From the NCBI GenBank assembly GCA_025350305.1, contig JANXYC010000101.1, positions 1 through 32,448 of the forward strand: 32,448 nucleotides of DNA, written 5' to 3'. Positions 17,727 through 31,684 of the stretch are shown here, in pieces. The DNA is from Cyclobacteriaceae bacterium (GTDB lineage: Bacteria > Bacteroidota > Bacteroidia > Cytophagales > Cyclobacteriaceae). Positions within the stretch are counted from its first letter, which is position 1, and each line of letters opens with the position of its first letter. The position numbers and the translations under genes were made by a program. The notes beneath the pieces were generated by a model that was not told the origin of the DNA, made no database searches, and worked only from the letters and a program-made list of their open reading frames with translations.

Positions 17727-17791
17727 TAATCTAAATCATTTTTTTTGCTGATTAATGTCATCCAATGAAGGGAGACATTCATCTTGCTTTG
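17727..17791 (+). promoter_or_regulatory. CRP/FNR-type paired operator and -7 box upstream of the 17896 gene
   Basis: The proximal box is TGATTAATGTCA (17749-17760, centre 17754.5). A one-mismatch box TAATCTAAATCA (17727-17738) lies exactly 22 bp upstream. TTGCTTTG (17784-17791), one mismatch from TAnnTTTG, starts 29.5 bp after the proximal centre, the same spacing as in four other promoters here. That places the box near -41. A start point near 17796 would give a leader of about 100 bases. Confidence 0.6.
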
Positions 17792-17895
17792 AAGAATCTT
17801 TAGAAATTACACAAAGTACCCGAGGCCTTAAAGAGACAACGCTCAACGGAGCAGAGCATAGGACGTTATTTTCAAGCATAAAGCAAAACTAAAAT

Positions 17896-18252
17896 ATGAA
17901 AATTGTCATCAACGATCACCGGAAAATTTTTGCCATTCAGGAAGAATTTAACGGCATGTTCCCAAATTTGGAAATTGAATTCTTTGCGAAACCCAGCAAA
18001 ATAGGATCTGTCTCATCCAAAAAGTTGGTCGGACATAGCAAAAAACTGTTGGCATGCCGGGCAACGCATGAAGAGGGTGCTATTGAAATTCTGCCCTCCA
18101 TGACCATCCATGAGTTGAAAGACAATTTCAGCGATGTTTTTGAGTTGACCGTTAAGATCGTTCGAAAATCCTCAGATAGCGAGCGTGCGTTGCCCGTCCG
18201 TGAGAAATTTACACTCCAGGCAGAGAACAAACTTTGGACAAGTAAAATCTGA
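17896..18252 (+). CDS. small conserved hypothetical protein linked to the stress-protein cluster
   Basis: A 118-residue soluble protein without signal peptide or membrane segment. The pattern KIFAIQEEFNGMFPNLEIEFF...LPSMTIHELKDNFSDVFELTVKIVRKS resembles a family of short Bacteroidota proteins that I recall only as hypothetical. The usual family ending is divergent here (after residue 95). The gene has the same paired-box promoter as the neighbouring universal stress proteins, which suggests a role in the microaerobic or anoxic response; this is inference from regulation only. The 5' leader of about 100 bases is long for this region and may hold further control. A hairpin follows the stop. Confidence 0.75.
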   Translation: MKIVINDHRKIFAIQEEFNGMFPNLEIEFFAKPSKIGSVSSKKLVGHSKKLLACRATHEEGAIEILPSMTIHELKDNFSDVFELTVKIVRKSSDSERALPVREKFTLQAENKLWTSKI

Positions 18253-18261
18253 TGCTTAAAA

Positions 18262-18292
18262 GAGGTAACCCTTCAGATATGGAGGTTGCCTC
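18262..18292 (+). terminator. hairpin after the 17896 gene
   Basis: GAGGTAACC (18262-18270) pairs with GGTTGCCTC (18284-18292), a 9-bp stem with one T-G pair and a 13-base loop, 10 bases after the stop codon. No T-run follows, so it may act with a factor or as an RNA 3'-end stabiliser. Confidence 0.4.
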
Positions 18293-18426
18293 GTGCGATT
18301 AATCGTTCCATTAGTTCTTCATATAACCTTTGAGCCAATCTGTAACGCTTTGCCCTACGGAAGGCTATTTAACCAGAATTCGATGGTACAGGCGCATCCG
18401 AGATTGATGTTGGCGCACTTAAGAAG

Positions 18427-18491
18427 TGATTTAAGTCAGTTTTTCCATTGACGATCATCATATTACGGCGTTCGGTTATGGAATACTTTTG
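18427..18491 (+). promoter_or_regulatory. CRP/FNR-type paired operator and promoter of the first universal stress gene
   Basis: Two perfect TGA-N6-TCA boxes, TGATTTAAGTCA (18427-18438, centre 18432.5) and TGACGATCATCA (18449-18460, centre 18454.5), are 22 bp apart. TACTTTTG (18484-18491) is a perfect TAnnTTTG starting 29.5 bp after the proximal centre. No TTG is present at -33, as expected if an activator replaces it. The start codon at 18506 leaves a leader of about ten bases. Confidence 0.75.
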
Positions 18492-18505
18492 ATAAAAATT
18501 AACCT

Positions 18506-19339
18506 ATGAAAAAGATTCTTGTCCCATCTGATTTTTCTGACCCAGCCGTCCAGGCTTTCCGGTTTGCGATTGAGATCGCCAATCAAAGTAAGGGTGAAAT
18601 TATCCTGCTGAATGTCGTAGAGCTTCCAGTAATGCACGATACGGTACTGATGCCCACGCTCAATTTTGAAATGGAATTTTTGAAAGACTTGAAGACGAAT
18701 GCCGAAAAGAATTTTAACAAGATGAAAACCAAATGGGCAAACGATGGACCTAAGGTCAGCTCTTTTGTTGAGCATGGCCCGATTTCGACAACCATCGCCC
18801 ATTTTGCAGAGAAAAAGAAAGTTGATTTGATTGTCATGGGAACCAAGGGAGCTTCTGGCCTCAGAGAGTTTTTTGTGGGGTCCAATACAGAAAAGATCGT
18901 CCGCAAGTCGACAGTACCCGTAATAGCAGTGAAGAAATTTGTAAAGGCATCGTCCATTAAGAATATCGTGTTTCCTAATACCCTGGGTAAAGATCAGGAG
19001 GATTTGACCATGAGGGTGAAGGCGCTACAAGAGTTTTTCAAAGCAAAACTTCATATTCTATATGTCAACACACCCGCTAATTTTCAGGACGACATAAGTA
19101 CCAAACGACATTTAAAAGAGTTTGTCGATCGTTTTATGATTAAGAATTTTACCCTGAATGTATTTAATGACCTTGAACAGGAATCTGGTATGATACATTT
19201 TGCGCACGAAGTGGGAGCAGACATGATTGCAATGGCTACTCATGGTCGCCGGGGACTAAATCACCTGATGATGGGCAGCATCGCTGAAGATATTGTCAAT
19301 CATATCAACTGCCCGATTTGGACTTGCACGGAAAAGTGA
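18506..19339 (+). CDS. tandem-domain universal stress protein (UspA type) 1
   Basis: A 277-residue protein made of two UspA folds (about 1-145 and 150-277). The first starts KKILVPSDFSDPA and ends with the ATP-binding motif G112-x2-G115-x9-G125-S126 in MGTKGASGLREFFVGS; the second has the related MATHGRRGLNHLMMGS. Such proteins bind ATP and accumulate under starvation, low oxygen or respiratory stress. The promoter carries two perfect CRP/FNR-type boxes. A paralogue of the same architecture follows at 19557. Soluble, presumably cytoplasmic. Downstream, 217 bases separate it from the next copy, holding a doubtful short ORF and the next promoter. Confidence 0.95.
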   Translation: MKKILVPSDFSDPAVQAFRFAIEIANQSKGEIILLNVVELPVMHDTVLMPTLNFEMEFLKDLKTNAEKNFNKMKTKWANDGPKVSSFVEHGPISTTIAHFAEKKKVDLIVMGTKGASGLREFFVGSNTEKIVRKSTVPVIAVKKFVKASSIKNIVFPNTLGKDQEDLTMRVKALQEFFKAKLHILYVNTPANFQDDISTKRHLKEFVDRFMIKNFTLNVFNDLEQESGMIHFAHEVGADMIAMATHGRRGLNHLMMGSIAEDIVNHINCPIWTCTEK

Positions 19340-19343
19340 TTTT

Positions 19344-19454
19344 GTGAAGAAGTACCTCCTGATCTTAATGGTGGGACTACTTCCAATAATTTTTTCCCTC
19401 GCGTCGCTGCCCCAAAAAGCTTACGTAGACAATACATTTTTGCAAGTTCTTTAA
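19344..19454 (+). CDS. possible 36-residue membrane or signal-like peptide
   Basis: A GTG at 19344, 4 bases after the first universal stress gene, opens a 36-codon frame that reads as two lysines, a hydrophobic run (YLLILMVGLLPIIFSLASL) and a polar tail ending in TAA. It looks like a signal peptide or single membrane helix. There is no clear ribosome-binding site, and it ends just before the next promoter. It could equally be the remnant of a longer exported protein or chance. Confidence 0.25.
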   Translation: MKKYLLILMVGLLPIIFSLASLPQKAYVDNTFLQVL

Positions 19455-19471
19455 ATAATAGGACCGGTATC

Positions 19472-19536
19472 TGATATAAGTCAGGTTAGGGCATGACCTA
19501 TCTCAAGGGCACGTGTAAAAACGTATGATAAATTTG
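19472..19536 (+). promoter_or_regulatory. CRP/FNR-type paired operator and promoter of the second universal stress gene and ccoI
   Basis: TGATATAAGTCA (19472-19483, centre 19477.5; flanked as CTGA/TCAG) and TGACCTATCTCA (19494-19505, centre 19499.5) are 22 bp apart. TAAATTTG (19529-19536), a perfect TAnnTTTG, begins 29.5 bp after the proximal centre. No -33 TTG is seen. The expected start near 19541 is about 16 bases before the start codon. Confidence 0.75.
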
Positions 19537-19556
19537 ACGAATAAATCATTTCCGTC

Positions 19557-20405
19557 ATGAAGAAAATATTGGTCCCTTGTGATTTTTCGGCACCTGCTAT
19601 CAATGCTTATCGCTTTGCATTGGATGTGGCCGCCTTGTCCAATGGAACGGTTTATTTGCTTAATGTTATTGAGCTGCCGGTAATCCCGAATACAGTTTTT
19701 ACACCAGTACGCTCACTGGGTACGGCCCTGAGAAGGGAAATGAGCATAAAGGCTTACGAAAATTTCGACAAGATTTCAATCCGGTATAAAAGGGATAATG
19801 TCAAGGTTGTTTCGAATGTGGAATTTGGAATTCCTTCCAAGACCATCCTGAATTATGCAAAGAAGCATTCGATTGACCTTGTCATGATGGGTTCACATGG
19901 AGCCAGTGGATTAAAAGAATATTTCGTTGGTTCGAACACGGAAAAAATTGTAAGGCTTTCCACCGTTCCGGTTATGGTAGTGAAAGATTTTTATATGGGG
20001 CCGGTAAAAAATATTGTCTTCCCAAACGCATTGGATGTTGAAAATCAGAAAGATCTTATACGGAAGATAAAAGCATTACAGGCTCTCTTCAAAGCCCATC
20101 TGCACCTGGTCTGGATTAATACGCCCGAAAATTTTACGTCGGATACGTTTACCCTCAAGCGCCTGAATGCTTTTGCCAAGCGGTTTACACTCAGGGACTT
20201 TACAATCAATATTTTCAATCATTTGTCTGAAGAAGCGGGTATTATCCGGTTCACGAATGCGATCCATGCTGATCTGATCGCCATGGGAACGCACGGAAGA
20301 AAGGGGCTTTCCCATATAATGGCCGGAAGCATGACGGAGGACGTTACGAATCATGGAAAATCTCTGATTTGGACATGCGTTATGAAAAAGGACAAAAAAC
20401 AATAA
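19557..20405 (+). CDS. tandem-domain universal stress protein (UspA type) 2
   Basis: A 282-residue paralogue of the preceding stress protein with the same two-domain layout: KKILVPCDFSAPA at the start, MGSHGASGLKEYFVGS with G112, G115, G125 and S126 in domain 1, and MGTHGRKGLSHIMAGS in domain 2. Both domains keep the ATP-binding pattern. Only 9 bases separate it from ccoI, so it heads the operon that also encodes the copper ATPase and CcoS, tying this stress protein to low-oxygen respiration. The paired CRP/FNR-type boxes upstream support that. Confidence 0.95.
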   Translation: MKKILVPCDFSAPAINAYRFALDVAALSNGTVYLLNVIELPVIPNTVFTPVRSLGTALRREMSIKAYENFDKISIRYKRDNVKVVSNVEFGIPSKTILNYAKKHSIDLVMMGSHGASGLKEYFVGSNTEKIVRLSTVPVMVVKDFYMGPVKNIVFPNALDVENQKDLIRKIKALQALFKAHLHLVWINTPENFTSDTFTLKRLNAFAKRFTLRDFTINIFNHLSEEAGIIRFTNAIHADLIAMGTHGRKGLSHIMAGSMTEDVTNHGKSLIWTCVMKKDKKQ

Positions 20406-20414
20406 TTCCTGGCA

Positions 20415-22805
20415 ATGCCTTCAATTAAAATTGTTACAGATTTAGAATGCTATCACTGTGGGCAACTTTGTGACGAAATAGTATGGCTTCAGGATAAGCC
20501 CTTTTGCTGCAATGGATGCATGACGGTCTTTGAAATTCTAACCGATAACGAACTTTGTGAATATTATTCGTTGGATGCGAAGCCCGGCATCACCTTGCGA
20601 CATGTTAACGAAGAATCATACGAATACCTGGATGAGCCAACCGTACGGAAGAAGATCATGGAGTTTGATTCGCCTTCATTTGCCCGAGTCAGGTTTTATT
20701 TGCCCGCAATACATTGCATTTCCTGTATCTGGTTATTGGAAAATCTTCAGAAGATCCAAAAAGGAGTGTTGAAGTCTGAAGTGAATTTCGCCGGAAAGAT
20801 GGTATGCATTGATTTTAATCCTGCTCATGTTACACCTGGAAAATTGGCGCACCAACTGGCTTCACTGGGTTATATTCCACAAATCAACCTTGGCGACGAA
20901 AGAAAACAAAGATCAGTCGCCGGGAAAACATTGATTACGAAGCTTGCCGTGGCGGGATTTGCATTTGGCAATATCATGCTGTTGAGCTTTCCGGAATACC
21001 TTGGAATAGACGATTCGGACAAAAGTTTGCGCTCTGTATTTTCTTACTTAACTATAGTATTGGCTGTTCCGGTAATGATCTATTGCGCACAGGATTATTT
21101 TATGAATGCCTGGAAAAGCTTTGCGCAAAAGCAAATCAATATTGATGTACCCATTACAGTAGGATTGCTCGCGTTGTTTTCACGCAGTATTTACGACATT
21201 CTCTATCAAAGTGGTCCGGGCTATCTTGATTCGTTGACAGGCCTCGTTTTTTTCTTATTGATTGGCCGTTGGTTTCAAAGCAAGACCTATGAGAGCCTGG
21301 CCTTTGATCGGGATTACAAATCATATTTTCCATTGGTTGTACAAAAGCAGGTACATCGCGAATGGGTACCCATTATTATTCACGACCTTCAAGTTGGCGA
21401 CCAGATCAAAATACGGAATTTAGAAATCGTCCCGGCCGACAGCAATTTACTTTCCGATTGGGCCTATATCGATTATAGTTTTGTTACGGGCGAATCGAAA
21501 GCAGAGAAGGTCAAGTTGGGCGAACAAGTATATGCAGGAGGGAGACTCATCGGGCAGCCTATTGAGCTGGTTGTAACGAAAAAGACTTCCCAGGGACACT
21601 TGACCAGTTTGTGGAACAATCCAGTCTTTCAAAAACCAGAAGAGCGGGGGTATAGAAAAACAATTGACCGCGCAGCAAAGGGTTTTACCTGGGTGGTGAT
21701 GGTCCTTGCATTTGTTACGGCTGTTGTTTGGTATATCTATGATCCATCAAGAGTATGGCTGGTGTTGACTTCCGTATTAATGGTGGCGTGTCCTTGTGCA
21801 TTGGCGTTAGCGGCTCCTTTTACCTACGGTACCCTCCTGCGCATCTTCGGAAGAAATCACCTCTATCTGAAAAATACAGACGTTATTGAGCGTATGGCTT
21901 CGGTTGATGCCGTCGTGTTTGATAAAACCGGAACGGTGACCTACGCAAAGGAGCCCAATGTACAATTCGGAGGAGTGTTGAACGAAGAAGAAACCTCATG
22001 GGTTAAAACGCTCACCAGTTACTCCACTCATCCATTGAGTAATCTGATCACACGGTCTATTCATTTACGACCTGTTAACATTGTTCAGGCCTTCAAAGAA
22101 CATCCTGGCCATGGGGTTGAGGGAATCATTGCCGGCCATTCAATCAAATTGGGATCTGCGGCATTTATTGGATTCCGGCAGAACGTAAACGCGCAAGCCA
22201 CATTAGTTTTTGTTTCGATTGATGAAGAGATGAGAGGGTATTTTTCCGTTGCTATTGCTATCCGAAAAAACCTCCGAGAAATGCTTTTACGGCTGGGGGA
22301 AAGATGTTTTGCCCTGGTTTCGGGGGACACTGAAACAGATAAAGTTCAAATGAGCAACCTGTTCAACCCTTCCGTGCAACTTATTTTTAATCAAAGTCCT
22401 AACGATAAGCTGCATTACATTCGTGATCTTCAGCAGCAGGGTAGAAAAGTGATGATGCTGGGTGATGGACTGAACGATGCCGGGGCTTTGAAGCAAAGCG
22501 ATGTTGGAATTGCCGTTACGGATGACACCGGCGTGTTTACCCCGGCCTGCGACGGGATTCTTCAGGGTGAAATGATGGAATCGTTAGATAAGTTTCTTGC
22601 ACTTGCTAAATCTTCCACTTCCATTCTAAAGGCTGCTTTTACAATATCCTTTATGTACAATGCTGTTGCCTTAACCTTTGCCATAACGGGGCACCTTACT
22701 CCCCTGGTGGCCGCCATATTAATGCCCATCAGCAGTATTAGTGTGGTAGGATTCTCAACGTTGGCGGTCAATTATGTGGCCGCTGGAAAATTGAAAAACC
22801 GTTAA
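20415..22805 (+). CDS. ccoI: CcoI/FixI-type copper-transporting P1B ATPase
   Basis: A 796-residue heavy-metal P-type ATPase. The N-terminus has a Cys-rich segment (C12, C15, C19 and C31, C32, C35) typical of the oxidase-linked subclass, then a metal-binding domain with HCISC (C101, C104). Catalytic landmarks are VTGES (357-361), the membrane CPC at 459-461, D503 in DKTGT, the THPL motif and GDGLNDAGAL near the end. In cbb3 systems this ATPase exports copper for the CuB centre. It lies 9 bases after the second stress gene, and an inactivated acetyl-CoA hydrolase and ccoS follow, which supports the CcoI assignment over general copper resistance. Confidence 0.95.
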   Translation: MPSIKIVTDLECYHCGQLCDEIVWLQDKPFCCNGCMTVFEILTDNELCEYYSLDAKPGITLRHVNEESYEYLDEPTVRKKIMEFDSPSFARVRFYLPAIHCISCIWLLENLQKIQKGVLKSEVNFAGKMVCIDFNPAHVTPGKLAHQLASLGYIPQINLGDERKQRSVAGKTLITKLAVAGFAFGNIMLLSFPEYLGIDDSDKSLRSVFSYLTIVLAVPVMIYCAQDYFMNAWKSFAQKQINIDVPITVGLLALFSRSIYDILYQSGPGYLDSLTGLVFFLLIGRWFQSKTYESLAFDRDYKSYFPLVVQKQVHREWVPIIIHDLQVGDQIKIRNLEIVPADSNLLSDWAYIDYSFVTGESKAEKVKLGEQVYAGGRLIGQPIELVVTKKTSQGHLTSLWNNPVFQKPEERGYRKTIDRAAKGFTWVVMVLAFVTAVVWYIYDPSRVWLVLTSVLMVACPCALALAAPFTYGTLLRIFGRNHLYLKNTDVIERMASVDAVVFDKTGTVTYAKEPNVQFGGVLNEEETSWVKTLTSYSTHPLSNLITRSIHLRPVNIVQAFKEHPGHGVEGIIAGHSIKLGSAAFIGFRQNVNAQATLVFVSIDEEMRGYFSVAIAIRKNLREMLLRLGERCFALVSGDTETDKVQMSNLFNPSVQLIFNQSPNDKLHYIRDLQQQGRKVMMLGDGLNDAGALKQSDVGIAVTDDTGVFTPACDGILQGEMMESLDKFLALAKSSTSILKAAFTISFMYNAVALTFAITGHLTPLVAAILMPISSISVVGFSTLAVNYVAAGKLKNR

Positions 22806-22814
22806 CCTAAAACG

Positions 22815-23560
22815 ATGTACACGCCCGGAGAAGAAGCAGTAAAGATGATTAAATCGGAGAATCGTGTGTTTGTGCACGGTGGTGCAGCTACGCCTCATCA
22901 CTTGTTAGGAAAAATGACGGAACGGGCTTCGGAGTTGTTTAATGTCGAAATAGTAGGCATCAGTTTGCAAGGGGATGCGCTGTTTGCGCAAAAAAAATAC
23001 AATGATAATTTCCGGATCAACTCACTTTTTGTCTCGGAAAATGTTCGTGCGGCCGTAAATGAAGGGCGTGGTGATTATGTACCCATATTCCTGAGTGAAA
23101 TTCCCAATCTTTTCAGAAGTGGAATTTTACCCATCGATGTAGCGCTGGTTCAGGTCTCACCGCCAGACAAGCATGGGTATTGTTCTTTGGGAACCTCCGT
23201 TGATATTGCCCTTGCAGGTGTTAAAGCTGCCAGGAAAGTGATTCCGGTGTTGGTGGCCAGATGGATTTCATCCGGGGAGCTTCCCTTTCTGAAGGAGGAA
23301 AACCCATTATTGCCCTACCCTCAACAACAGGAAAGGGAATCTCAAGAATTGTTCCCTTTTTAAAGCAAGGAGCTGGGGTAGTCACAACACGAGCCCATGC
23401 TCATTACATTGTAACCGAGTATGGAGTGGCGTACCTGTACGGAAAGAATATGCGACAACGCGCAAAAGCATTGATCAAAATTGCCCATCCCAATCATCGG
23501 GAAGACCTGGATAAAGCAGCTTTCGAGCGGTTTCATAGTTATCAATTTGAACATTCTTAA
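22815..23560 (+). pseudogene. acetyl-CoA hydrolase/CoA-transferase with internal deletion and frameshift
   Basis: The N-terminal part (22815 to about 23243, about 143 residues, up to DIALAGVKAARKVI) and the C-terminal part (from about 23243 in the +1 frame, SGVGGQMDFIRGASLSEGG to AKALIKIAHPNHREDLDKAAF) both match the acetyl-CoA hydrolase/transferase family. About 180-190 residues of the usual 430, including the central catalytic region, are missing between them, and the join is out of frame. Reading on in the first frame gives an unrelated tail and a stop at 23361-23363. The gene is therefore inactive unless the assembly is wrong. It lies inside the ccoI-ccoS operon, 9 bases after ccoI and 8 before ccoS. 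Confidence 0.85.
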
Positions 23561-23568
23561 TCGTAGCC

Positions 23569-23760
23569 ATGGACATTATCATCGTTCTGCTCAGCATAAG
23601 TCTCTCCATCGCTGCAGGTTTTCTGGTCCTCTTCATCTGGAATATAAGGAGTGGTCAATACGACGATACCTACACACCATCCATCCGAATTCTTTTTGGG
23701 GACAAAAAAAAGGAATCGAAAGCGGGTAAAAGCGACCTTACATCAAAACATCAGCCGTAA
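23569..23760 (+). CDS. ccoS: cbb3 oxidase assembly protein CcoS
   Basis: A 63-residue membrane protein with one N-terminal helix (IIIVLLSISLSIAAGFLVLF) followed by WNIRSGQYDD and a basic tail, the pattern of CcoS. CcoS is required for inserting heme and copper into the cbb3 catalytic subunit. Start ATG 8 bases after the truncated CoA-hydrolase; it must be read from the ccoI transcript. Downstream lie 226 bases before the DUF892 gene, holding that gene's operators. Confidence 0.9.
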   Translation: MDIIIVLLSISLSIAAGFLVLFIWNIRSGQYDDTYTPSIRILFGDKKKESKAGKSDLTSKHQP

Positions 23761-23873
23761 AAGGCAATCTCTTGGTTGAGTAGTCTTCCACCAACGGATC
23801 TTGCTAAAATTGAATGATCACAGGATTGGCAATCATTAATTTCGACAATTCATTATTTCCGCCTGTAGTAAGC

Positions 23874-23917
23874 TGATGAAAATCAGGGGAGTAACTGACC
23901 TTCATCAGTCATTTTTG
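23874..23917 (+). promoter_or_regulatory. CRP/FNR-type paired operator of the DUF892 gene
   Basis: TGATGAAAATCA (23874-23885, centre 23879.5; flanked C/G) and TGACCTTCATCA (23896-23907, centre 23901.5; flanked AC/GT) are 22 bp apart, as in the other promoters. The -7 box does not follow the rule: at 29.5 bp from the proximal centre there is GAAGTTGC. CATTTTTG (23910-23917), one mismatch from TAnnTTTG, starts 30.5 bp after the distal centre. If that is the promoter, the second box would overlap it and could repress. Confidence 0.6.
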
Positions 23918-23986
23918 GAGATGCTTTCAGGAAGTTGCGTTCGGTATTGCGGTATATGATAATGTATTATACTTCCCATTAAAATT

Positions 23987-24502
23987 ATGAAAACAACCCT
24001 TAACAACTTGAACGAGACATTGGCGTATCTTCTTGAAGGAATGTACGATGCTGAGAAGAAACTTATGAAAGTCGTGCCCGATTGCCTTCACCTGGTTACT
24101 TCGCGGGCGCTGAAAAGTGAAATAAAGAAATACGTCGAGAGTGCGGCAGACAAGAGGATCAAGCTAAAAAGAATATTCAGCTACTTACTGGCAGGACCCT
24201 TCGGTCGGAAGAACAAGGTAATTGACAGAATGCTAAAAGATGCCGGGAATATTTTAAAATTTACATCATCCCCTGAAGTGAAGGATGCAATGCTTATTGG
24301 ATACTTGCAAGCTGTCAATCATCATAAAATTTCAGCATACGGTACCGCCAAGGCATTTTCTGTGGAGCTTGAGTTGCAGGCGGTCACCGATCTTCTGGCT
24401 GAAGTGCTCGAATGGGAAAAGGAAACAGACCAGGCGTTGACGAAAATTGCGTTGAAAGAAGTGAACCGAAAAGCCGCCGCATTAGCGGTAGTACTGGTGT
24501 AG
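23987..24502 (+). CDS. DUF892 (YciE/YciF-like) ferritin-fold protein
   Basis: A 171-residue all-helical protein beginning MKTTLNNLNETLAYLLEGMYDAEKKL, followed by LLAGPFGRKNKVIDRML, and SSPEVKDAMLIGYLQAVNHHKISAYGTAKAF, the layout of the DUF892 ferritin-like family. E and H residues in the helices (for example E17, E23 and the HH pair near 109-110) are candidate metal ligands, but the di-iron site cannot be confirmed by eye. Family members are stress-induced and of unclear biochemical role. It carries the paired CRP/FNR-type boxes and is followed by an AT-rich terminator, so it seems to be monocistronic. Confidence 0.88.
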   Translation: MKTTLNNLNETLAYLLEGMYDAEKKLMKVVPDCLHLVTSRALKSEIKKYVESAADKRIKLKRIFSYLLAGPFGRKNKVIDRMLKDAGNILKFTSSPEVKDAMLIGYLQAVNHHKISAYGTAKAFSVELELQAVTDLLAEVLEWEKETDQALTKIALKEVNRKAAALAVVLV

Positions 24503-24533
24503 TTGGATCTTTGTTGCATTATGAAGAAGCTTT

Positions 24534-24566
24534 ATAAAATTATCTCAATTTTATTTAAGTTTTTTT
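24534..24566 (+). terminator. AT-rich intrinsic terminator of the DUF892 gene
   Basis: ATAAAATT (24534-24541) pairs with AATTTTAT (24547-24554) around a 5-base loop, and a run of seven T follows at 24560-24566. The stem is all A-T, so efficiency is uncertain. Confidence 0.4.
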
Positions 24567-24650
24567 CTGAGCATATTTCCACACGGTCATCGAGTAAATG
24601 GATAATAACTCTTGCAGGTCCCTGATTCCTTTTTGAGGAACACCAAATCC

Positions 24651-24715
24651 TGACAAAACTCATCTTTTTCACTAACCTCCATCATGTTTGGTCTTTCTAT
24701 GTCATTCTATTTTTA
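24651..24715 (+). promoter_or_regulatory. CRP/FNR-type paired operator and promoter of the cbb3 oxidase operon
   Basis: TGACAAAACTCA (24651-24662, centre 24656.5) is a perfect TGA-N6-TCA box, and TAACCTCCATCA (24673-24684, centre 24678.5), one mismatch, lies 22 bp downstream. TATTTTTA (24708-24715), one mismatch from TAnnTTTG, begins 29.5 bp after the proximal centre. A start point near 24720 would be about 20 bases before the ccoN start codon. Confidence 0.65.
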
Positions 24716-24740
24716 TGAAACATAAAATCTTGGCAGCACT

Positions 24741-26876
24741 ATGGAATTAGAGAAATTCAGCTATGATAATAAGGTTGTCAAGGCGTTTATCATTGCCACT
24801 GTTGTTTTTGGATTGGTCGGGATGCTGGTAGGGCTCACAGCCGCCATTCAGTTGTTTTATCCCATCTTCAACTTTGATACGCAATACACCACATTTGGTC
24901 GTATCCGGCCACTACATACCAATGCTATCATCTTCGCCTTCGTCGGCAATGCCATGTTTGCCGGCATATATTACTCCATGCAGCGGTTGTTAAAAACGCG
25001 GATGTTCAGCGACTTGTTAAGTTGGATTCATTTTTGGGGTTGGCAACTTATCATTCTGGCAGCGGCAATTTCATTGCCCTTGGGCATGACCACCTCTAAA
25101 GAGTATGCCGAACTGGAATGGCCCATTGACATAGCCATCACAATCATCTGGGTGGTATTTGGATGGAATATGATTGGCACGATTATCAAAAGACGGGAGC
25201 GGCATATGTATGTGGCCATTTGGTTTTACATCGCCACGTTTGTAACGGTTGCGGTTTTACATGTCGTGAATTCGTACGAAATACCCGTGAATTTCTTCAA
25301 AAGCTATTCCGGGTACGCGGGGGTACAAGATGCTCTTGTGCAATGGTGGTATGGTCATAATGCTGTGGCTTTCTTTCTCACGACACCTTATCTCGGCATG
25401 ATGTATTACTTCCTGCCGAAAGCCGCCAATCGCCCAGTATATTCTTACAAGCTTTCGATTATCCACTTTTGGTCACTCATTTTTATATATATCTGGGCTG
25501 GGCCGCATCATTTACTGTACACGTCACTGCCAGATTGGGCACAGTCGCTGGGAGTTGTTTTTTCTATCATGCTGATTGCTCCGTCATGGGGTGGCATGCT
25601 CAATGGATTGATGACCTTACGAGGAGCGTGGGACAAGGTTCGTGAAGATCCGGTGCTGAAGTTCATGGTGGTTGCCGTGACGGCCTATGGTATGGTAACC
25701 CTGGAAGGTCCATTGTTATCCTTAAAAAATGTCAATGCCATTGCACACTTTACGGATTGGATCGTAGCGCACGTTCATGTGGGTGGCCTGGGTTGGAACG
25801 GCTTCCTCATTTTTGGTATCCTGTATTGGATGGTGCCACGTATGTGGGATACGAAATTGTTTTCAACGAAGTTGGCCAACCTTCACTTTTGGCTGGGTAC
25901 GCTAGGTATTATTTTCTATGCGCTGCCGATGTATGTTTCGGGTGTTGTGCAAAGCCTGATGTGGAAGGAGTTCAATCCAGAAGGTTTTTTAGTATACAAA
26001 AATTTCTTGGAGACAACGGTTCAAATTCTTCCCTTGTACATGTTGCGTGCTATTGGCGGCGGCCTTTATCTCATAGGCACCATCATCATGACCTATAATC
26101 TGATCAAAACCGCCTACGCCGGAAATTTCATTGCCAACGAAGCCGCAGAAGCAGCGCCTCTTGCAAAAGAGTATGCCGCTCCAGGAAGCGGCGGATGGCA
26201 TCACCGGCTACTCGAGCATAAACCCATCTTATTCACCGTTCTTTCACTAATCATTATCCTGATCGGCGGCATTATCGAGATGGTGCCAACCTTCCTGATC
26301 AAGTCAAACATTCCAACTATCACCAGTGTAAAACCCTATACACCCCTTGAACTTCATGGTCGTGATATTTATATACGGGAAGGATGTGTGAACTGTCATA
26401 CACAAATGGTCCGACCGTTTCGCTCGGAGACGGAACGTTATGGAGAGTATTCCAAAGCCGGCGAATATGTCTATGATCATCCATTCCTCTGGGGATCGAA
26501 GCGAACAGGCCCTGATCTGCAACGCGTGGGAGGCAAGTATTCCAATGCATGGCATTACAGTCACATGCTCGCCCCCGATGCGGTTTCAACAGGTTCGATC
26601 ATGCCACCCTATCCATGGCTGTTTGAGCAGACCATAGACAAAAATCAAACCGCAAAAAAGATTTCTGCGTTGCGAAAAGTGGGAGTGCCCTATGAAGAGG
26701 ATTATGAATCAGTAGCCAATGATGAATTGGATAAGCAGGCGACAGAGATCGTTTCCAATTTGAAAGGGGAAGGAATCGAAGTGATGCCTGAGACGGAGAT
26801 CGTCGCATTGATTGCTTATCTACAGCGACTTGGAAAAGACATCAAAGCTGAAAAGACTGCGGAAATAAAACAGTGA
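24741..26876 (+). CDS. ccoN: cbb3 cytochrome c oxidase, fused subunits I and II (CcoN-CcoO)
   Basis: A 711-residue fusion. Residues 1-470 are the twelve-helix heme-copper subunit CcoN with conserved histidines in RPLHTNAIIF, QWWYGHNAV, GPHHLLY and HVHVGGLGWNG. A short linker leads to one membrane helix (about 495-515) and the CcoO cytochrome domain, with heme c site C549-V-N-C552-H553, MVRPFRSE and GSKRTGPDLQRVGG; the distal ligand is in GSIMPPYPW. The complex reduces oxygen to water with high affinity and pumps protons. Fusion of CcoN and CcoO is common in Bacteroidota. It heads ccoNO-Q-P-G-H and has the paired-box promoter, in line with induction at low oxygen. Confidence 0.96.
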   Translation: MELEKFSYDNKVVKAFIIATVVFGLVGMLVGLTAAIQLFYPIFNFDTQYTTFGRIRPLHTNAIIFAFVGNAMFAGIYYSMQRLLKTRMFSDLLSWIHFWGWQLIILAAAISLPLGMTTSKEYAELEWPIDIAITIIWVVFGWNMIGTIIKRRERHMYVAIWFYIATFVTVAVLHVVNSYEIPVNFFKSYSGYAGVQDALVQWWYGHNAVAFFLTTPYLGMMYYFLPKAANRPVYSYKLSIIHFWSLIFIYIWAGPHHLLYTSLPDWAQSLGVVFSIMLIAPSWGGMLNGLMTLRGAWDKVREDPVLKFMVVAVTAYGMVTLEGPLLSLKNVNAIAHFTDWIVAHVHVGGLGWNGFLIFGILYWMVPRMWDTKLFSTKLANLHFWLGTLGIIFYALPMYVSGVVQSLMWKEFNPEGFLVYKNFLETTVQILPLYMLRAIGGGLYLIGTIIMTYNLIKTAYAGNFIANEAAEAAPLAKEYAAPGSGGWHHRLLEHKPILFTVLSLIIILIGGIIEMVPTFLIKSNIPTITSVKPYTPLELHGRDIYIREGCVNCHTQMVRPFRSETERYGEYSKAGEYVYDHPFLWGSKRTGPDLQRVGGKYSNAWHYSHMLAPDAVSTGSIMPPYPWLFEQTIDKNQTAKKISALRKVGVPYEEDYESVANDELDKQATEIVSNLKGEGIEVMPETEIVALIAYLQRLGKDIKAEKTAEIKQ

Positions 26877-26924
26877 TGGCTAATCCTACTTATAGGCACG
26901 ATAGGATGGTTTATTCCGATGGAA

Positions 26925-26947
26925 CTATGTGTTCTATGTTTCTATGT
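26925..26947 (+). repeat. triplicated CTATGT in the ccoNO-ccoQ gap
   Basis: CTATGT occurs at 26925-26930, 26934-26939 and 26942-26947, spaced 9 and 8 bases. The 110-base gap also has TCCTACT (26884-26890) answered by AGTAGGA (26964-26970). No -7 box or gene is clear there. Confidence 0.4.
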
Positions 26948-26986
26948 GGTTAAATTTTTCTGTAGTAGGACTAAACGTGAAACGCT

Positions 26987-27178
26987 ATGTATAACAATGT
27001 ACTTCAAAGCATCGAAAACATCGCCATCTGGCCGGTGATCTCGTTTATAATTTTCTTCCTGTTTTTCCTTTGCTTGCTATGGTATGTGTTTACTGCTGAT
27101 AGAGAATTCATTCATAAGATGGGACAGTTGCCACTCGATGATGCATCTACATCTGATAAGACACGTGTCGAACAATAA
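26987..27178 (+). CDS. ccoQ: small cbb3 oxidase subunit CcoQ (FixQ-like)
   Basis: A 63-residue protein with one hydrophobic helix (about 14-34, IWPVISFIIFFLFFLCLLWYVF) followed by TADREFIHKMGQLPLDD. Size, single N-terminal helix and position between CcoNO and CcoP identify it as the CcoQ/FixQ subunit, which stabilises the complex. Sequence conservation of the family is low, so position carries much of the weight. Confidence 0.82.
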   Translation: MYNNVLQSIENIAIWPVISFIIFFLFFLCLLWYVFTADREFIHKMGQLPLDDASTSDKTRVEQ

Positions 27179-27192
27179 AAACAGAATTTATC

Positions 27193-28284
27193 ATGAGCTG
27201 CTGCAAAGATGAAAAAACCTTGATTACGACCATGGACACTTCAGCCGATAAAGGACCGGGGCCCACACCGAAAATAGAATGTCAGCGGAATTGCGAGCGC
27301 TGTCAGAAAAAGCATGGACACAAAAAAGTAACCGGTATAAAAAACCCAATTCTCGTGATGGTATTTTTGTTGCTCAGTTCCCTTCGGGTATGGGCGCAAG
27401 ATACCGGGCCTGGTGCAAAAACATTTTGGGATGACCCCATCAACCATCCTCTGTTTCTCGTATACCTTGTTACCTTTTTTGTTTTCATCGTCATCCTCCT
27501 GACGCTCGCGGTGGCGATCATTACGCTTAGGGTACTCAATGTTTTTGTAGAGAAATCGTACGAGGAAAAAGCGGCCAAACTGGGCATACCCTACGTTGCC
27601 CCACAGCAGTGGTGGACGAAGTTTTGGCAAAATGCCAATGCGATGGTGCCCCTTGAAGAGGAAAAAAACATTGAGCTGGCTCATAATTATGATGGAATTC
27701 GCGAGCTGGATAACCACCTGCCCCCGTGGTGGAAAGGATTGTTCTACGGATCAATCATATTTGCCGTCATTTATTTAGTGGTCTATCACTTTTCAAATTC
27801 CCTTCCACTCTCGGGACAAGAATATGAAAATGAACTGGCCTTCGCAGAGCAGCAAGCAAGAATTTTCAAAGCATCACAACCTGTGGCGGTGATTGACGAG
27901 AATAGCCTATCCTTCACCAATGATGCAGACATCATCGCAAAAGGAAAATCGGTATTCATGAGTAGTAACTGTCAATCGTGCCACCGGAATGATGGCAGTG
28001 GGAACACCATTGGTCCTAATTTGACAGACGCATACTGGTTGCACGGTGGCGAAATCAAAAATATATTCTCGACGATCAAAAACGGTGTGGTTGAAAAGGC
28101 GATGCCGGCGTGGGGCAAAGTCATGAGCCAAAAAGATGTTCGTGATGTGTCTTTTTATGTGATGAGCCTGCAGGGGACGAATCCACAAAATGCCAAGGCT
28201 CCCCAGGGAGAACTGTTCATACCTAAACCGGATACTACAGCAAAGGATAGCACAAAAGTGAGCGCCATGATGAGGAATAAGTGA
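27193..28284 (+). CDS. ccoP: cbb3 oxidase cytochrome subunit CcoP with a Cys-rich N-terminal extension
   Basis: A 363-residue protein. Residues about 53-69 (LVMVFLLLSSLRVWAQ) look like the usual CcoP leader, followed by two membrane helices (about 87-113 and 182-202) and one cytochrome c domain with C260-Q-S-C263-H264 and a Met in KAMPAWGKVM. Only one heme site is present, whereas proteobacterial CcoP has two. Unusually, an in-frame extension of about 50 residues precedes the leader and holds SCCKDE and ECQRNCERCQKKHGH. If translation begins instead near 27355, the extension is lost. CcoP accepts electrons from soluble cytochromes. It is 14 bases after ccoQ and 14 before ccoG. Confidence 0.93.
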   Translation: MSCCKDEKTLITTMDTSADKGPGPTPKIECQRNCERCQKKHGHKKVTGIKNPILVMVFLLLSSLRVWAQDTGPGAKTFWDDPINHPLFLVYLVTFFVFIVILLTLAVAIITLRVLNVFVEKSYEEKAAKLGIPYVAPQQWWTKFWQNANAMVPLEEEKNIELAHNYDGIRELDNHLPPWWKGLFYGSIIFAVIYLVVYHFSNSLPLSGQEYENELAFAEQQARIFKASQPVAVIDENSLSFTNDADIIAKGKSVFMSSNCQSCHRNDGSGNTIGPNLTDAYWLHGGEIKNIFSTIKNGVVEKAMPAWGKVMSQKDVRDVSFYVMSLQGTNPQNAKAPQGELFIPKPDTTAKDSTKVSAMMRNK

Positions 28285-28298
28285 GGCTAGTTTAAAGA

Positions 28299-29750
28299 AT
28301 GGAAATAACACACGCTAACGACGATTTGTATCGCTATGACGAGGAGTTTCGGGATACCATTGCCACGGTGGACGAAAAGGGCAAAAGGATATGGTTATTT
28401 CCAAAAAAACCAGGTGGTACTCTTCACCGGTGGCGCGTGGTGGTCACCATGGTGCTGCTATCCATTTTCTTTAGCGGACCTTTTCTGAAAATTGGAGGCC
28501 ACCCTTTACTGTTGCTGAATATTTTTGAACGGAAGTTTGTCATCCTTGGTCAGGCTTTCTGGCCTCAGGATTTTGTTTTGCTGGCAATCACAATCATTAC
28601 CTTCTTCGTCTTCATTATCCTTTTCACCGTGGTCTTTGGTAGAATCTGGTGCGGATGGATGTGTCCTCAAACATTATTCATGGAGATGGTCTTTCGCAAA
28701 ATTGAATACTGGATTGAAGGCGATGGCCCCGCACAACGAAGGTTAATGGACGAGCCTTTCGGTTTCAGTAAAATCAGCAAGAAGACACTCAAGTACACCT
28801 TATTTATTATGATCTCAGTCTTGATTGCACATACAGCGATGGCTTATCTGATAGGGATCAACCAAACACTTGAAATTATTTGCCATTCACCTTCAGAAAA
28901 TCTGGCCGGCTTTACAGGACTCGTTGCTTTTACAGGAATATTCTGTGCTGTATTTGCCAAATTCCGTGAACAGGCATGTGTTGCGGTTTGCCCGTATGGG
29001 AGGCTTCAAAGTGTCCTATTGACAAAAGATTCGATTGTGGTGGCGTACGATTGGTTGAGGGGTGAACCGCGTGGAAAATTGAAAAAAAATCCGGTGGCGG
29101 AAGGAAAGTCCAACGATTGCATCGACTGTAAATTATGTGTCCACGTTTGCCCAACCGGTATTGACATCCGGAATGGAACGCAACTCGAATGTGTAAACTG
29201 TACTGCCTGTATTGACACCTGTGATGAGGTGATGCTCAAGATCGGCAAGCCGAAAGGGTTGATCCGCTATGCGTCGTACAATTCAATCCAGCATGGTGTA
29301 ACCAGACTCCTCACACCAAGGATGATTGGGTATGCAGTTGTGTTGGTGGCGTTGGTGGGCCTGTTAAGTTTTTCACTGCAGACCCGGTCGGATGTTGAAA
29401 CCAACGTATTCAAAGTTTCGGGCACCTTGTTTCAGCGAACCGATGACGACTTCATCACCAATCTCTACAATGTTGAATTTGTAAATAAAACGTTTGAAGA
29501 CTTGTCTCTTCAAATTAAAGTCGAATCACCAGTCAGTGCCTCACTGGTAGCGCCCGACGGTAAACTGTTACTAATTCCGGCAGGAGGCTTCTTAAAAAAA
29601 ATTTACTTTATCAAAATTCCTGCTGTGGATATAACCACGGCCCGGACCATCGTGTTCCTGGGTGTGTATCAAGAGGGAAGATTATTGGAAAGGGTAAAGG
29701 TTAAATTTATCGGGCCGGTCAATAACAAATCAAAAAGTCAATCACTATGA
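28299..29750 (+). CDS. ccoG: cbb3 oxidase accessory ferredoxin-like membrane protein CcoG (FixG/RdxA)
   Basis: A 483-residue membrane protein. Several helices lie in the N-terminal half (about 45-65, 90-115, 165-190, 205-220), with the conserved WCGWMCPQTLFMEM. Two 4Fe-4S motifs follow: C274, C277, C280, C284 (CIDCKLCVHVCP) and C298, C301, C304, C308 (CVNCTACIDTC). A further helix near 345-362 leads to an Ig-like C-terminal domain. CcoG is thought to reduce Cu(II) for delivery to cbb3 oxidase. Its stop overlaps the start of ccoH by 4 bases (ATGA), a sign of translational coupling. Confidence 0.95.
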   Translation: MEITHANDDLYRYDEEFRDTIATVDEKGKRIWLFPKKPGGTLHRWRVVVTMVLLSIFFSGPFLKIGGHPLLLLNIFERKFVILGQAFWPQDFVLLAITIITFFVFIILFTVVFGRIWCGWMCPQTLFMEMVFRKIEYWIEGDGPAQRRLMDEPFGFSKISKKTLKYTLFIMISVLIAHTAMAYLIGINQTLEIICHSPSENLAGFTGLVAFTGIFCAVFAKFREQACVAVCPYGRLQSVLLTKDSIVVAYDWLRGEPRGKLKKNPVAEGKSNDCIDCKLCVHVCPTGIDIRNGTQLECVNCTACIDTCDEVMLKIGKPKGLIRYASYNSIQHGVTRLLTPRMIGYAVVLVALVGLLSFSLQTRSDVETNVFKVSGTLFQRTDDDFITNLYNVEFVNKTFEDLSLQIKVESPVSASLVAPDGKLLLIPAGGFLKKIYFIKIPAVDITTARTIVFLGVYQEGRLLERVKVKFIGPVNNKSKSQSL

Positions 29751-30175
29751 ATTGGGGGAAATGGATCATTGTTTCGTTTGTCTTGTTTGCGGCTTTCATC
29801 GGCATTCTCGTAGTTATTTGCGTGCGACAGGATATTAGCCTAGTGTCAAAAAACTATTATCAGGAGGAATTGGCTTATCAGCAACAAATCGATCGTATGA
29901 ACAACACCGCTCGACTCGGGGAAAAACCGACGATTGCAATCACGGGCCAGACATTGGAAATACAATTCAGTCAATTTAACAATCTCGAGAGTGGCGAAGT
30001 GAAAGTATTCCGGCCATCCGATCTGCGATTTGACAAGCAATTTATCCTTCATACCTCAACAGAAACGACCCGGCGATTTGACATAAGCTCCTTTCCAAAG
30101 GGAATGTATCGTGTCAAAATGTGCTGGTCCATGAAGGACAAGAAGTATTATGTCGAACAGGTAATAATTCTTTAG
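29747..30175 (+). CDS. ccoH: FixH/CcoH family assembly protein
   Basis: A 142-residue protein with one N-terminal membrane helix (about 5-27) followed by VSKNYYQEELAYQQQIDRMNN, the characteristic segment of FixH/CcoH, and a beta-rich periplasmic domain. CcoH is a late assembly factor or stabiliser of cbb3 oxidase. It overlaps ccoG by 4 bases and is followed after 2 bases by the SafE-type gene, so translation is tightly coupled. Confidence 0.93.
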   Translation: MNWGKWIIVSFVLFAAFIGILVVICVRQDISLVSKNYYQEELAYQQQIDRMNNTARLGEKPTIAITGQTLEIQFSQFNNLESGEVKVFRPSDLRFDKQFILHTSTETTRRFDISSFPKGMYRVKMCWSMKDKKYYVEQVIIL

Positions 30176-30177
30176 TC

Positions 30178-30861
30178 ATGTGGCTGACCGCGCTGTTAAT
30201 AGGATTTGCAGGCAGTTTCCATTGTCTGGGCATGTGCAGCCCGCTGGTCATGGCTGTAACAACTTTGCGAAAACCGTTTTTCATCAACCGTTTGGTGTAT
30301 AACAGCGGCAGGATTTTTATGTACGGATTGTTGGGGGCGCTGGTAAGCGCTTTTGGGTCGCTGTTCAGACTTTCCGGATTTCAAAATATCCTCACCGTCT
30401 TATTGGGAAGTGTGTTGATCATCCTGGGATTGGCAGGCAGCAGCCAGTTCCGCATTCCATTGCTCACTAGTGTCGTGCTAAGAATTACGATTAGGATCAA
30501 ATGCTTGTTCTCAAAATTTTTGCATGAGAAAACAATCCTTTCCATTACGATCATGGGTATGCTGAATGGACTTTTACCGTGTGGCCTGACGTACCTGGCG
30601 TTGACGTATTGTCTTACGGTTGCCAATGCGGCCAATGGCTTCCTGTTCATGATGATTTTTGGTGTCGGTACCTTGCCGGTGATGCTCGGATTTACATCCG
30701 TCATACACGTGTTAATTAATCGCTTTAATTTTACTTTTCGAAATCTTTCAACAGTTGTCATGATAGCGCTGGGAGCACTTTTAATCACAAGGAGTATTTA
30801 TGTGCATTATCATGAAAATATCCATCCTCAGCAGGAAGAATCGATCGTGACCTGTCAGTAA
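30178..30861 (+). CDS. SafE/TauE-family (UreH-domain) membrane protein of the cbb3 operon
   Basis: A 227-residue protein with about six membrane helices. The start at 30178 is chosen because it is 2 bases after the ccoH stop and gives MWLTALLIGFAGSFHCLGMC; a longer frame from 30121 would overlap ccoH by 55 bases. H15, C16, M19 and C20 in the first helix and LPCGLTYLAL in the fourth are conserved in the subgroup that accompanies cbb3 clusters and is presumed to handle copper. Substrate is inferred from this context, not known. It is the last gene of the ccoNO operon. Confidence 0.88.
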   Translation: MWLTALLIGFAGSFHCLGMCSPLVMAVTTLRKPFFINRLVYNSGRIFMYGLLGALVSAFGSLFRLSGFQNILTVLLGSVLIILGLAGSSQFRIPLLTSVVLRITIRIKCLFSKFLHEKTILSITIMGMLNGLLPCGLTYLALTYCLTVANAANGFLFMMIFGVGTLPVMLGFTSVIHVLINRFNFTFRNLSTVVMIALGALLITRSIYVHYHENIHPQQEESIVTCQ

Positions 30862-31120
30862 TCAATTATCACTCCCGATTGGTAAGATACCACAATGACT
30901 TGAACCGCGAACAACGATTTAGCCAAACCAACTAGCAATGATGCCTGGTATTTTATTCTATTAGCTATGATTCGGATTCTACCATAAAGCAGGGCAAATC
31001 TTGATTTTTTTGTCTAATGGTTAAGGAATGAAGATCAACTATCCTCTTGTTCTGATCGATCACAATTGCCCGCTGTTAGCCCGTTACTGACAGGCACTCA
31101 GACAAAATCATACCGCTATC
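30862..31120. other. intergenic region between the cbb3 and nos operons
   Basis: No protein-like frame or RNA gene is seen in these 259 bases. TGATCGATCA (31053-31062) is a perfect palindrome but has a 4-base, not 6-base, interior between TGA and TCA. CTGA-N7-TCAG (31087-31101) is like the operators but one base too long. CAG-ACAAAA-TCA (31099-31110) lies 22 bp upstream of the perfect box at 31121 and keeps only the right half. No T-tract hairpin follows the SafE-type gene. Confidence 0.5.
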
Positions 31121-31163
31121 TGACAAAAGTCATGTTTTACCCAAAGCGTCCGGGGTAGGTTTG
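31121..31163 (+). promoter_or_regulatory. CRP/FNR-type operator and promoter of the cytochrome-nosZ operon
   Basis: TGACAAAAGTCA (31121-31132, centre 31126.5) is a perfect TGA-N6-TCA box with the longer TGAC/GTCA symmetry. TAGGTTTG (31156-31163), a perfect TAnnTTTG, begins 29.5 bp after its centre. Only a half-match exists 22 bp upstream, so this promoter has one full box rather than two. No -33 TTG is present. A start point near 31167 gives a leader of about 30-50 bases. Confidence 0.7.
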
Positions 31164-31195: not shown

Positions 31196-31684
31196 ATGTA
31201 CAAAAACCAGAAGCATATGAAATACTTATTCTTTATAGGAATTGCAGCCATGGCGTTAGCCTGCGCGCCCGACAAACCCAAAAACCAGGAACAATATCCT
31301 GATCAACCCACCAAGTCAGCGGTGGAAGCAGTTATTACAGATCCGACAAAAGGGATCGGCGCTGTGAAAAAAGTTACACTGAAGACTCCATTGGAACAGG
31401 AGCGAGTAGGACGTGGACTGGCGATTTTTGAAATGAAATGTTCTGCATGTCATCGGCTTACCACTGAACGCGTCGTAGGCCCTGGATGGAAGGATGTTAC
31501 CAAACGCAGACAACCGGAGTGGGTAATGAATATGATTACCAATGTGGATGTCATGTTGGACAAAGATCCGGAAGCGCAAAAACTCTTTGAACTCTGTTTG
31601 GTAAGAATGCCTAATCAAAATGTGTCCATCGGTGACGCCAGGGATATTCTTGAATTCATGCGTCAAAATGACGGCGCAAAGTAA
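31196..31684 (+). CDS. exported c-type cytochrome preceding nosZ
   Basis: A 162-residue monoheme cytochrome with a signal peptide ending in AMALAC (C23), so probably a lipoprotein. The heme is bound by C82-S-A-C85-H86 and the likely axial methionine is M138 in VRMPNQN. An internal ATG at 31217 gives MKYLFFIGIAAMALAC, a more compact signal peptide, and may be the true start. Small cytochromes like this commonly precede nosZ in Bacteroidota-type clusters and probably donate electrons to the reductase. It is 35 bases upstream of nosZ and shares its transcript. The promoter has one perfect CRP/FNR-type box. Confidence 0.92.
   Translation: MYKNQKHMKYLFFIGIAAMALACAPDKPKNQEQYPDQPTKSAVEAVITDPTKGIGAVKKVTLKTPLEQERVGRGLAIFEMKCSACHRLTTERVVGPGWKDVTKRRQPEWVMNMITNVDVMLDKDPEAQKLFELCLVRMPNQNVSIGDARDILEFMRQNDGAK

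Follow-up and report, generated by a model that had tools for sequence, protein, structure and literature searches.

Among described systems, the closest to the one reported here are the FixL–FixJ–FixK cascade of rhizobia and Caulobacter and the FNR/Anr-dependent class II promoters of Proteobacteria, at which an iron-sulfur (Fe-S) regulator with an N-terminal cysteine cluster uses a TTGAT-N4-ATCAA site placed at −41.5. Here we analyse a promoter module in a 32,448-nt stretch of DNA from a Cyclobacteriaceae bacterium (the window; contig JANXYC010000101.1 of assembly GCA_025350305.1, positions 1 to 32,448). The module consists of two TGA-N6-TCA boxes centred 22 bp apart and a Bacteroidota −7 box, TAnnTTTG, that begins 29.5 bp past the centre of the proximal box. 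The module, or at least its box pair, precedes genes for cbb3 oxidase, the copper ATPase CcoI, universal stress proteins (Usp), a DUF892 protein and a cytochrome c/NosZ operon; the gene assignments cbb3, CcoI, stress proteins, DUF892 and NosZ of a preliminary description hold. Its candidate regulator, encoded in the same genome, is a fusion of a receiver to CRP-family domains (receiver-CRP), directly downstream of a gene for a histidine kinase with a PAS domain.

The proposed system resembles the FixL–FixJ–FixK cascade in having a PAS kinase with FixL-like heme-pocket residues, receiver-mediated signalling, a CRP/FNR-type output, and cbb3 and nos targets, but differs from it in that receiver and CRP output are joined in one protein, the boxes are often tandem, and the promoters carry TAnnTTTG. 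Since receiver and output are one protein, the model needs neither a NarL-type FixJ nor a separate fixK transcription step; FixJ combines its receiver with a NarL/LuxR-type helix-turn-helix (HTH), whereas the output of the candidate is cNMP_binding plus HTH_Crp_2. With FNR/Anr promoters the module shares a symmetric TGA-N6-TCA core, the −41.5 placement, and low-oxygen targets including cbb3 and universal stress proteins; unlike there, the candidate of this genome includes a receiver but lacks a conserved cysteine cluster at its N terminus, a second box adjoins the first at a distance of 22 bp, and the −7 box is that of Bacteroidota. The outer bases are not those of TTGAT...ATCAA either: among 128 listed sites, T precedes TGA in 16% of the distal boxes and 34% of the proximal ones, T making up 29% overall, and A follows TCA in 16% of distal and 10% of proximal boxes. 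As at class II/III promoters of E. coli CRP, an activator at −41.5 would replace the upstream element, with a second upstream dimer on the same helix face; in contrast to E. coli CRP, the outer bases TGTGA/TCACA are absent, the second dimer would be only 22 bp off, and the effector is, judged by eye, apparently not cyclic AMP (cAMP).

Class II activation, the FixL PAS domain, the receiver and the CRP output are each known, and receiver, cNMP_binding and HTH_Crp are standard Pfam families; their combination, the tandem operator and its breadth may be new. Among the titles and abstract openings searched, which exclude most subscription journals, we found no description of the module or of a receiver-CRP oxygen regulator in Bacteroidota, and no account of low-oxygen sensing by aerobic or facultative Bacteroidota.

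The promoter module and its spacing

Inspection of the window confirmed the eleven TGA-N6-TCA boxes at the centres reported in the preliminary description, together with their 22-bp pairing and, in five promoters, the 29.5-bp distance to TAnnTTTG (Table 1). Three pairs are perfect, two contain one mismatched box, and TAnnTTTG is perfect in three promoters and has one mismatch in two. The box centred at 31126.5, previously called single, is indeed perfect, but has a degenerate partner 22 bp upstream (centre 31104.5), in which the right half is intact and the left half is lost. In a related Cyclobacteriaceae metagenome-assembled genome (MAG; locus L111), both Usp promoters retain the boxes, their 22-bp distance and the −7 box, and at the first of these the DNA upstream of the boxes has diverged from that of the window while the module is retained.

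The window contains 24 copies of TGAN6TCA against 11.7 expected, a number reached in none of 100 shuffles. Over the genome as a whole (G000; 305 contigs totalling 4.2 Mb, completeness 91.8%), the exact tandem with its 22-bp distance is found six times, including three in the window; if up to one mismatch is tolerated, the number rises to 27, of which the window contributes five, and the reversed pattern gives 1. The complete module with up to three mismatches gives 20 matches (the DUF892 pair being counted in both directions) against 2 reversed. Outside the window, the exact tandem at C72:356-420 (minus strand) has a perfect TATATTTG at exactly 29.5 bp and precedes an open reading frame (ORF) with a CxxCH heme motif, as seen by eye, while those on C124 (before a CHAD-domain gene) and C45 have no −7 box at the right distance.

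The same spacing recurs beyond this genome. In 61 genomes of the same class, the single-box element, box-N23-TAnnTTTG, is present at 358 sites, whereas a gap of N18 gives 20 and the reversed pattern 12, and tandem sites with up to one mismatch number 101. When both gaps were left free (17 × 17 = 289 combinations) in 29 class genomes picked for having the module, 20 of 25 tandem sites fell at exactly (10,23). An exact scan of GTDB for the 18-letter module returned at least 118 loci with at least 128 sites, a sample that may not be random. With the seed boxes removed, the listed loci contain 16 perfect pairs at 22 bp, and each other spacing up to 60 has 0–3; if the partner may carry one mismatch, the numbers are 64 at 22 bp and 1 to 13 at other spacings between 12 and 44. 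Gaps to TAnnTTTG peak at 23 (8 cases) and at 45 (8 cases), the latter being measured from the distal box, with at most 2 at other gaps. Furthermore, the Y and R of TGAY/RTCA, which lay outside the search pattern, occur together in 99 of the distal and 80 of the proximal boxes, out of 128 each. The module is thus real and conserved, and its recurrence across the genome and the phylum, together with its excess over shifted and reversed controls, bears out the earlier claim that the spacing is not due to chance.

A TTG 20–23 nt upstream of TAnnTTTG is found in only 1–6 of the 128 listed promoters at each of the four positions (positions 24–26 overlap the box and are uninformative), as expected if an activator replaces the −33 element. 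Together with the preference for the N23 gap, this agrees with the shared CRP/FNR class II architecture originally put forward. Because sites with one box at this spacing outnumber tandem sites, we read the single-box class II promoter as the basic form, of which the tandem would be an elaboration.

Distribution and target genes

By record title, 114 of the 118 listed loci belong to Bacteroidota; the other four come from a Legionella MAG, a Komeilibacteria MAG, an unnamed bacterium and a MAG labelled Bifidobacterium breve (L120). By our own arithmetic, 257 Gb of even composition should yield about 7.5 chance matches. The L120 contig holds both a receiver-CRP gene and the module, for which reason its label or binning is probably wrong. 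Named cultured genera in which module and fusion occur together are Pedobacter, Mucilaginibacter and Flavobacterium.

An ORF of at least 70 aa starts within 300 bp of 115 of the 128 sites, the remaining 13 being left out of the counts. Counted by the 25 commonest of 83 Pfam families, these 115 ORFs include 18 Usp proteins, 11 D-2-hydroxyacid (D-lactate type) dehydrogenases, 10 CcoN/CcoNO, 4 cytochromes c and 3 HSP20 proteins. Homology clusters that contain window genes comprise, among the listed loci, 18 Usp proteins, 10 homologs of CcoNO, 5 of the cytochrome c encoded at 31196 and 3 of the 118-aa protein, these last three sets lying behind the exact module; 3 homologs of CcoI lie directly behind the module, and one DUF892 homolog (L073) behind a complete module. 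All six window promoters therefore have at least one counterpart elsewhere, that of DUF892 only once, in keeping with the expectation of conservation in related promoters.

At six loci (L042, L055, L056, L069, L074 and L078), one box pair is flanked by TAnnTTTG on both sides at the right distance, so that a single operator could serve two divergent promoters. In nine loci (L029, L036, L052, L061, L088, L090, L103, L110 and L121), the module stands directly behind the receiver-CRP gene and before a D-lactate-dehydrogenase-like gene, which suggests fermentation as part of the regulon.

A receiver-CRP fusion as candidate regulator

The genome has eight matches to PF00027. One of these, encoded at G000:C63:10187-11251 (minus strand, 354 aa), is a fusion of Response_reg, cNMP_binding and HTH_Crp_2; among the best 25 of its 107 NCBIfam matches, none spans the receiver and CRP parts or reaches the cut-off, each being confined to one part or the other. 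Full-length relatives (42–55% identical) are encoded in 27 of the 118 listed module loci, each of which is at most 8 kb, and at 14 of them the proximal box is centred 34–163 bp past the point where the aligned regulator sequence stops, both being on one strand. In the same 118 loci, the L019 and L021 types of CRP-family protein have no match and the L017 type gives weak cross-hits to CRP parts.

Across 247 sampled genomes of the phylum, receiver-CRP (E ≤ 1e-40) is present in 38, every one of them among the 61 class members. Of these 38, 24 have the tandem module (≤1 mismatch), compared with 10 of the 209 others, namely 5 of the 23 remaining class genomes and 5 of 186 genomes outside the class, the latter five having one site each. 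Moreover, a receiver-CRP gene is located within 5 kb of 17 among 100 tandem sites (0.19 expected) and within 20 kb of 22 among 145 single sites (0.98 expected). The clustering test covered 100 of the 101 tandem sites of the class (one G099 site and the five sites outside the class were omitted) and 145 of the 358 single sites, from 29 of the 61 genomes, with the partly listed G202 dropped; coordinates were typed by hand, expected values ignore contig ends, and Fisher and Poisson values ignore relatedness among genomes. In presence as well as position, the receiver-CRP gene follows the motif, as the preliminary description had anticipated for a CRP/FNR-family gene, and the evidence that it regulates the module is strong but correlative.

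Receiver residues Asp52 and Lys104 and recognition-helix residues Glu313 and Arg317 are invariant in 27 aligned homologs; we take Glu313 and Arg317 to be equivalent to the Glu and Arg by which CRP and FNR read TGA. The sole invariant cysteine in this alignment is C51, beside D52 in the receiver, and an N-terminal cysteine cluster of the FNR type is not conserved in these 27 proteins. As the closest model, cAMP-CRP was rejected by eye: the GDFxGxxA stretch lacks what we take to be the Glu and Arg-Ser of E. coli CRP.

The adjacent FixL-like kinase and a proposed mechanism

In 19 of 28 cases (27 loci plus this genome, which is among the 19), the fusion gene is preceded, at a distance of no more than about 30 bases, by the end of an ORF that encodes the histidine-kinase box SHEFRTPL. 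Compared by phmmer with a stretch of Bradyrhizobium FixL taken from PDB 1dp6, the PAS domain of the L088 kinase gives E = 1e-31 and that of the kinase of this genome E = 2e-12. The equivalent of FixL His200, which we take to be the proximal heme ligand, is kept in all 19 compared kinases, and the equivalent of Arg220, presumably an O2 contact, in 15 of 19. Heme-based O2 sensing by the kinase is thereby supported at the level of sequence, but not shown.

We consider it likely that the module is a phylum-typical class II element read, in this genome, by the receiver-CRP fusion, which would be phosphorylated by the FixL-like PAS kinase and would induce low-oxygen genes together. Specifically, a CRP/FNR-family dimer would bind cTGAYNNNNRTCAt near −41.5 (a placement derived from what we take to be the position of the −7 box), replace the −33 element and recruit RNA polymerase at TAnnTTTG, thus activating rather than repressing. 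At many targets, a second dimer would bind, perhaps cooperatively, one footprint upstream (22 bp, about two helical turns) at about −63.5. Because the kinase PAS resembles the heme O2-sensor PAS of FixL, low oxygen would switch on the kinase encoded directly upstream of receiver-CRP; the kinase would then phosphorylate receiver-CRP, and the phosphorylated form would occupy the boxes. The result would be joint induction of cbb3 oxidase, CcoI, universal stress proteins, DUF892 and the cytochrome c/NosZ operon, as in a FixL–FixJ–FixK cascade with the FixJ receiver fused onto a FixK-like output. We propose this low-oxygen mechanism on account of the conserved receiver and recognition-helix residues and the missing −33 TTG. 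The earlier idea of one O2- or NO-sensing CRP/FNR activator accordingly survives in that a CRP-family regulator tracks the motif, but the best candidate is not a stand-alone protein, being a receiver-CRP paired with a FixL-like kinase; for NO sensing, the one point in favour is nosZ as a target.

The analysis yields a concrete operator code (box-22-box-29.5-TAnnTTTG), a target list and a candidate regulator and kinase, and predicts when the N2O reductase of this organism is switched on. A bolder version, for and against which we see the balance as even, is that much of Bacteroidota controls its low-oxygen regulon through just two proteins, in effect a condensed Fix system. A heme kinase of the FixL kind would work with receiver-CRP, and dimers of the latter, once phosphorylated, would sit on tandem operators spaced by one footprint, some of these pairs being shared by two divergent promoters, while an FNR paralogue with cysteines would read the same boxes in related genomes. 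If this is true, two different oxygen sensors have been grafted onto one DNA code.

Evidence against receiver-CRP control and alternative regulators

Several observations weigh against control of the module by the kinase and receiver-CRP. At the DUF892 promoter, the expected −7 position (23931, GAAGTTGC) has no TAnnTTTG. No tandem module is found at up to one mismatch in 14 of the 38 receiver-CRP genomes, which hold 147 single-box sites (reversed control, 3); with up to two mismatches, these 14 have 20 tandem-like sites against 15 in the 18 class genomes that have neither (reversed control, 2 in all 32 motif-free class genomes), so that the tandem is largely absent from them. Conversely, 114 single-box sites occur in the 23 class genomes without receiver-CRP. 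The kinase/regulator operon of this genome lacks a good module of its own, the best match having 6 mismatches, although a perfect single box (L142:12787), a degenerate partner and a −7-like box shifted by one are visible by eye before it. No kinase is seen beside the fusion in 9 of the 28 cases, some of which are loci that are cut, and Arg206 of FixL, whose role we likewise take as given, is kept in only 7 of 19 kinases. Finally, in 5 of 29 tandem-bearing class genomes receiver-CRP is missing and a close FNR-like protein without a receiver takes its place, and single sites cluster at FNR-like genes as well (19 of 145 within 20 kb; 1.34 expected) and, to a lesser extent, at L019-type genes (6 of 145 within 20 kb; 1.37 expected).

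These last observations raise the alternative that the main reader of the boxes is a conventional FNR-like Fe-S regulator of the L108/L094 type (receiver-less, with CxxC and further cysteines), receiver-CRP being a side branch or limited to some sites. FNR-like genes adjoin the module loci L108, L094, L097 and L089, the L108 protein aligns with E. coli-type Fnr along almost its full length (E = 2e-28, below the cut-off), and five cysteines are common to four FNR-like members. At E ≤ 1e-60, a cut set after the table had been seen, FNR-like proteins are found in exactly those five tandem-bearing genomes without receiver-CRP and in one genome with both; by our own count, receiver-less relatives (E ≤ 1e-20, open frame <300 aa) occur in 41 of the 61 class genomes. 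We nevertheless regard this alternative as rather unlikely: receiver-CRP is present in 24 of the 29 tandem-bearing class genomes, tandem sites cluster far less strongly around FNR-like genes (4 of 100 within 5 kb; 0.24 expected) than around receiver-CRP genes, and in this genome the sole match to the FNR-like protein is the receiver-CRP gene itself, with the reservation that an FNR-like gene could be missing from the assembly given its completeness. All 29 motif-bearing class genomes have either receiver-CRP or a close FNR-like protein, against 14 of 32 motif-free ones. The FNR-like stand-in genomes and the single boxes clustering at FNR-like genes imply that the operator is not private to receiver-CRP, and in some genomes an FNR-like paralogue probably recognises these boxes too. 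Activation by one of the other CRP-family proteins encoded in this genome, of the L019 type (C231) or the L017 type (C109), is very improbable. Both types carry an HTH, the L019 recognition helix shows by eye a Glu...Ser-Arg pattern, and a perfect single-box module (G000:C231:29147-29189; L143 9148-9190) starts at the stop codon of the L019-type gene of this genome, before a small ORF that looks rhodanese-like by eye; single sites also lie near L019-type genes within 5 kb (5 of 145; 0.34 expected). The presence of the L019 type, however, does not follow the tandem motif (25 of 29 class genomes with the motif, 27 of 32 without it), and none of the 100 tandem sites is within 5 kb of an L019-type gene; the L017 type is absent from 22 of 29 motif-bearing genomes (present in 7 of 29 against 2 of 32 motif-free ones), with no site nearby. 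Both were rejected as general activators of the tandem module; the L019-type protein is possibly a second regulator using the same box. That the spacing arose by accident, or reflects repeats or family relationships and carries no regulatory meaning, has a probability close to nil in our judgement. TGAN6TCA is a short palindrome of low information and the window was picked for its richness in it, yet the gap controls and the free-spacing peak described above reject chance, recurrence in the listed loci is almost confined to Bacteroidota and to positions before the same kinds of genes, and L111 keeps the module despite diverged upstream DNA.

At L108 (5662-6378) and L094 (4063-4887), the FNR-like regulator gene lies behind a gene that resembles, by eye, a UbiA/MenA-type prenyltransferase, and upstream of module-driven genes.

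Genes of the window

The modules and genes of the window are listed in Table 1. The 118-aa protein, with 3 homologs behind the module in other genomes, would be an unknown member of the low-oxygen regulon. The second Usp gene is probably the first gene of an operon with the CcoI gene, from which it is separated by a 10-bp gap. The NosZ fragment matches TIGR04246 with E = 4.7e-96 over 206 of 578 positions, which, for a fragment, falls under the whole-protein cut-off; we take this NosZ to belong to clade II.

Table 1. Promoter modules and genes in the window, with box centres and −7 boxes
Feature	Positions	Strand	Details
Module of 118-aa ORF	17727..17791	+	centres 17732.5/17754.5; distal TAATCTAAATCA (1 mismatch), proximal TGATTAATGTCA; −7-like TTGCTTTG at 17784 (1 mismatch)
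118-aa protein	17896..18252	+	no Pfam/NCBIfam match
Module before first Usp gene	18427..18491	+	perfect; centres 18432.5/18454.5; TGATTTAAGTCA, 22 bp, TGACGATCATCA, 29.5 bp, TACTTTTG at 18484
Universal stress protein	18506..19339	+	two Usp stretches
Module before second Usp gene	19472..19536	+	perfect; centres 19477.5/19499.5; TGATATAAGTCA, 22 bp, TGACCTATCTCA, 29.5 bp, TAAATTTG at 19529
Universal stress protein	19557..20405	+	
CcoI-type heavy-metal P-type ATPase	20415..22805	+	named from family and context
Tandem boxes before DUF892 gene	23874..23907	+	perfect; centres 23879.5/23901.5; no TAnnTTTG at expected place
DUF892 protein	23987..24502	+	
cbb3 operon module	24651..24715	+	centres 24656.5/24678.5; TGACAAAACTCA, TAACCTCCATCA (1 mismatch); TATTTTTA at 24708 (1 mismatch)
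CcoNO fusion, cbb3 oxidase subunits I/II	24741..26876	+	
Rest of cbb3 cluster	27193..30861	+	CcoP (27193), CcoG (28299), FixH-family (29747), DsbD_2-family (30121)
nosZ-operon module	31099..31163	+	degenerate distal CAGACAAAATCA (31099-31110), perfect proximal TGACAAAAGTCA; TAGGTTTG at 31156, 29.5 bp
Small cytochrome c	31196..31684	+	
Sec-dependent nitrous-oxide reductase NosZ, N-terminal part	31720..32448	+	TIGR04246; ends at window edge

Between the CcoI and DUF892 genes, at 22815-23560, lies an acetyl-CoA hydrolase gene that looks broken or truncated: the N-terminal and the C-terminal domain of the enzyme are matched by separate ORFs of 182 and 99 aa, which overlap.

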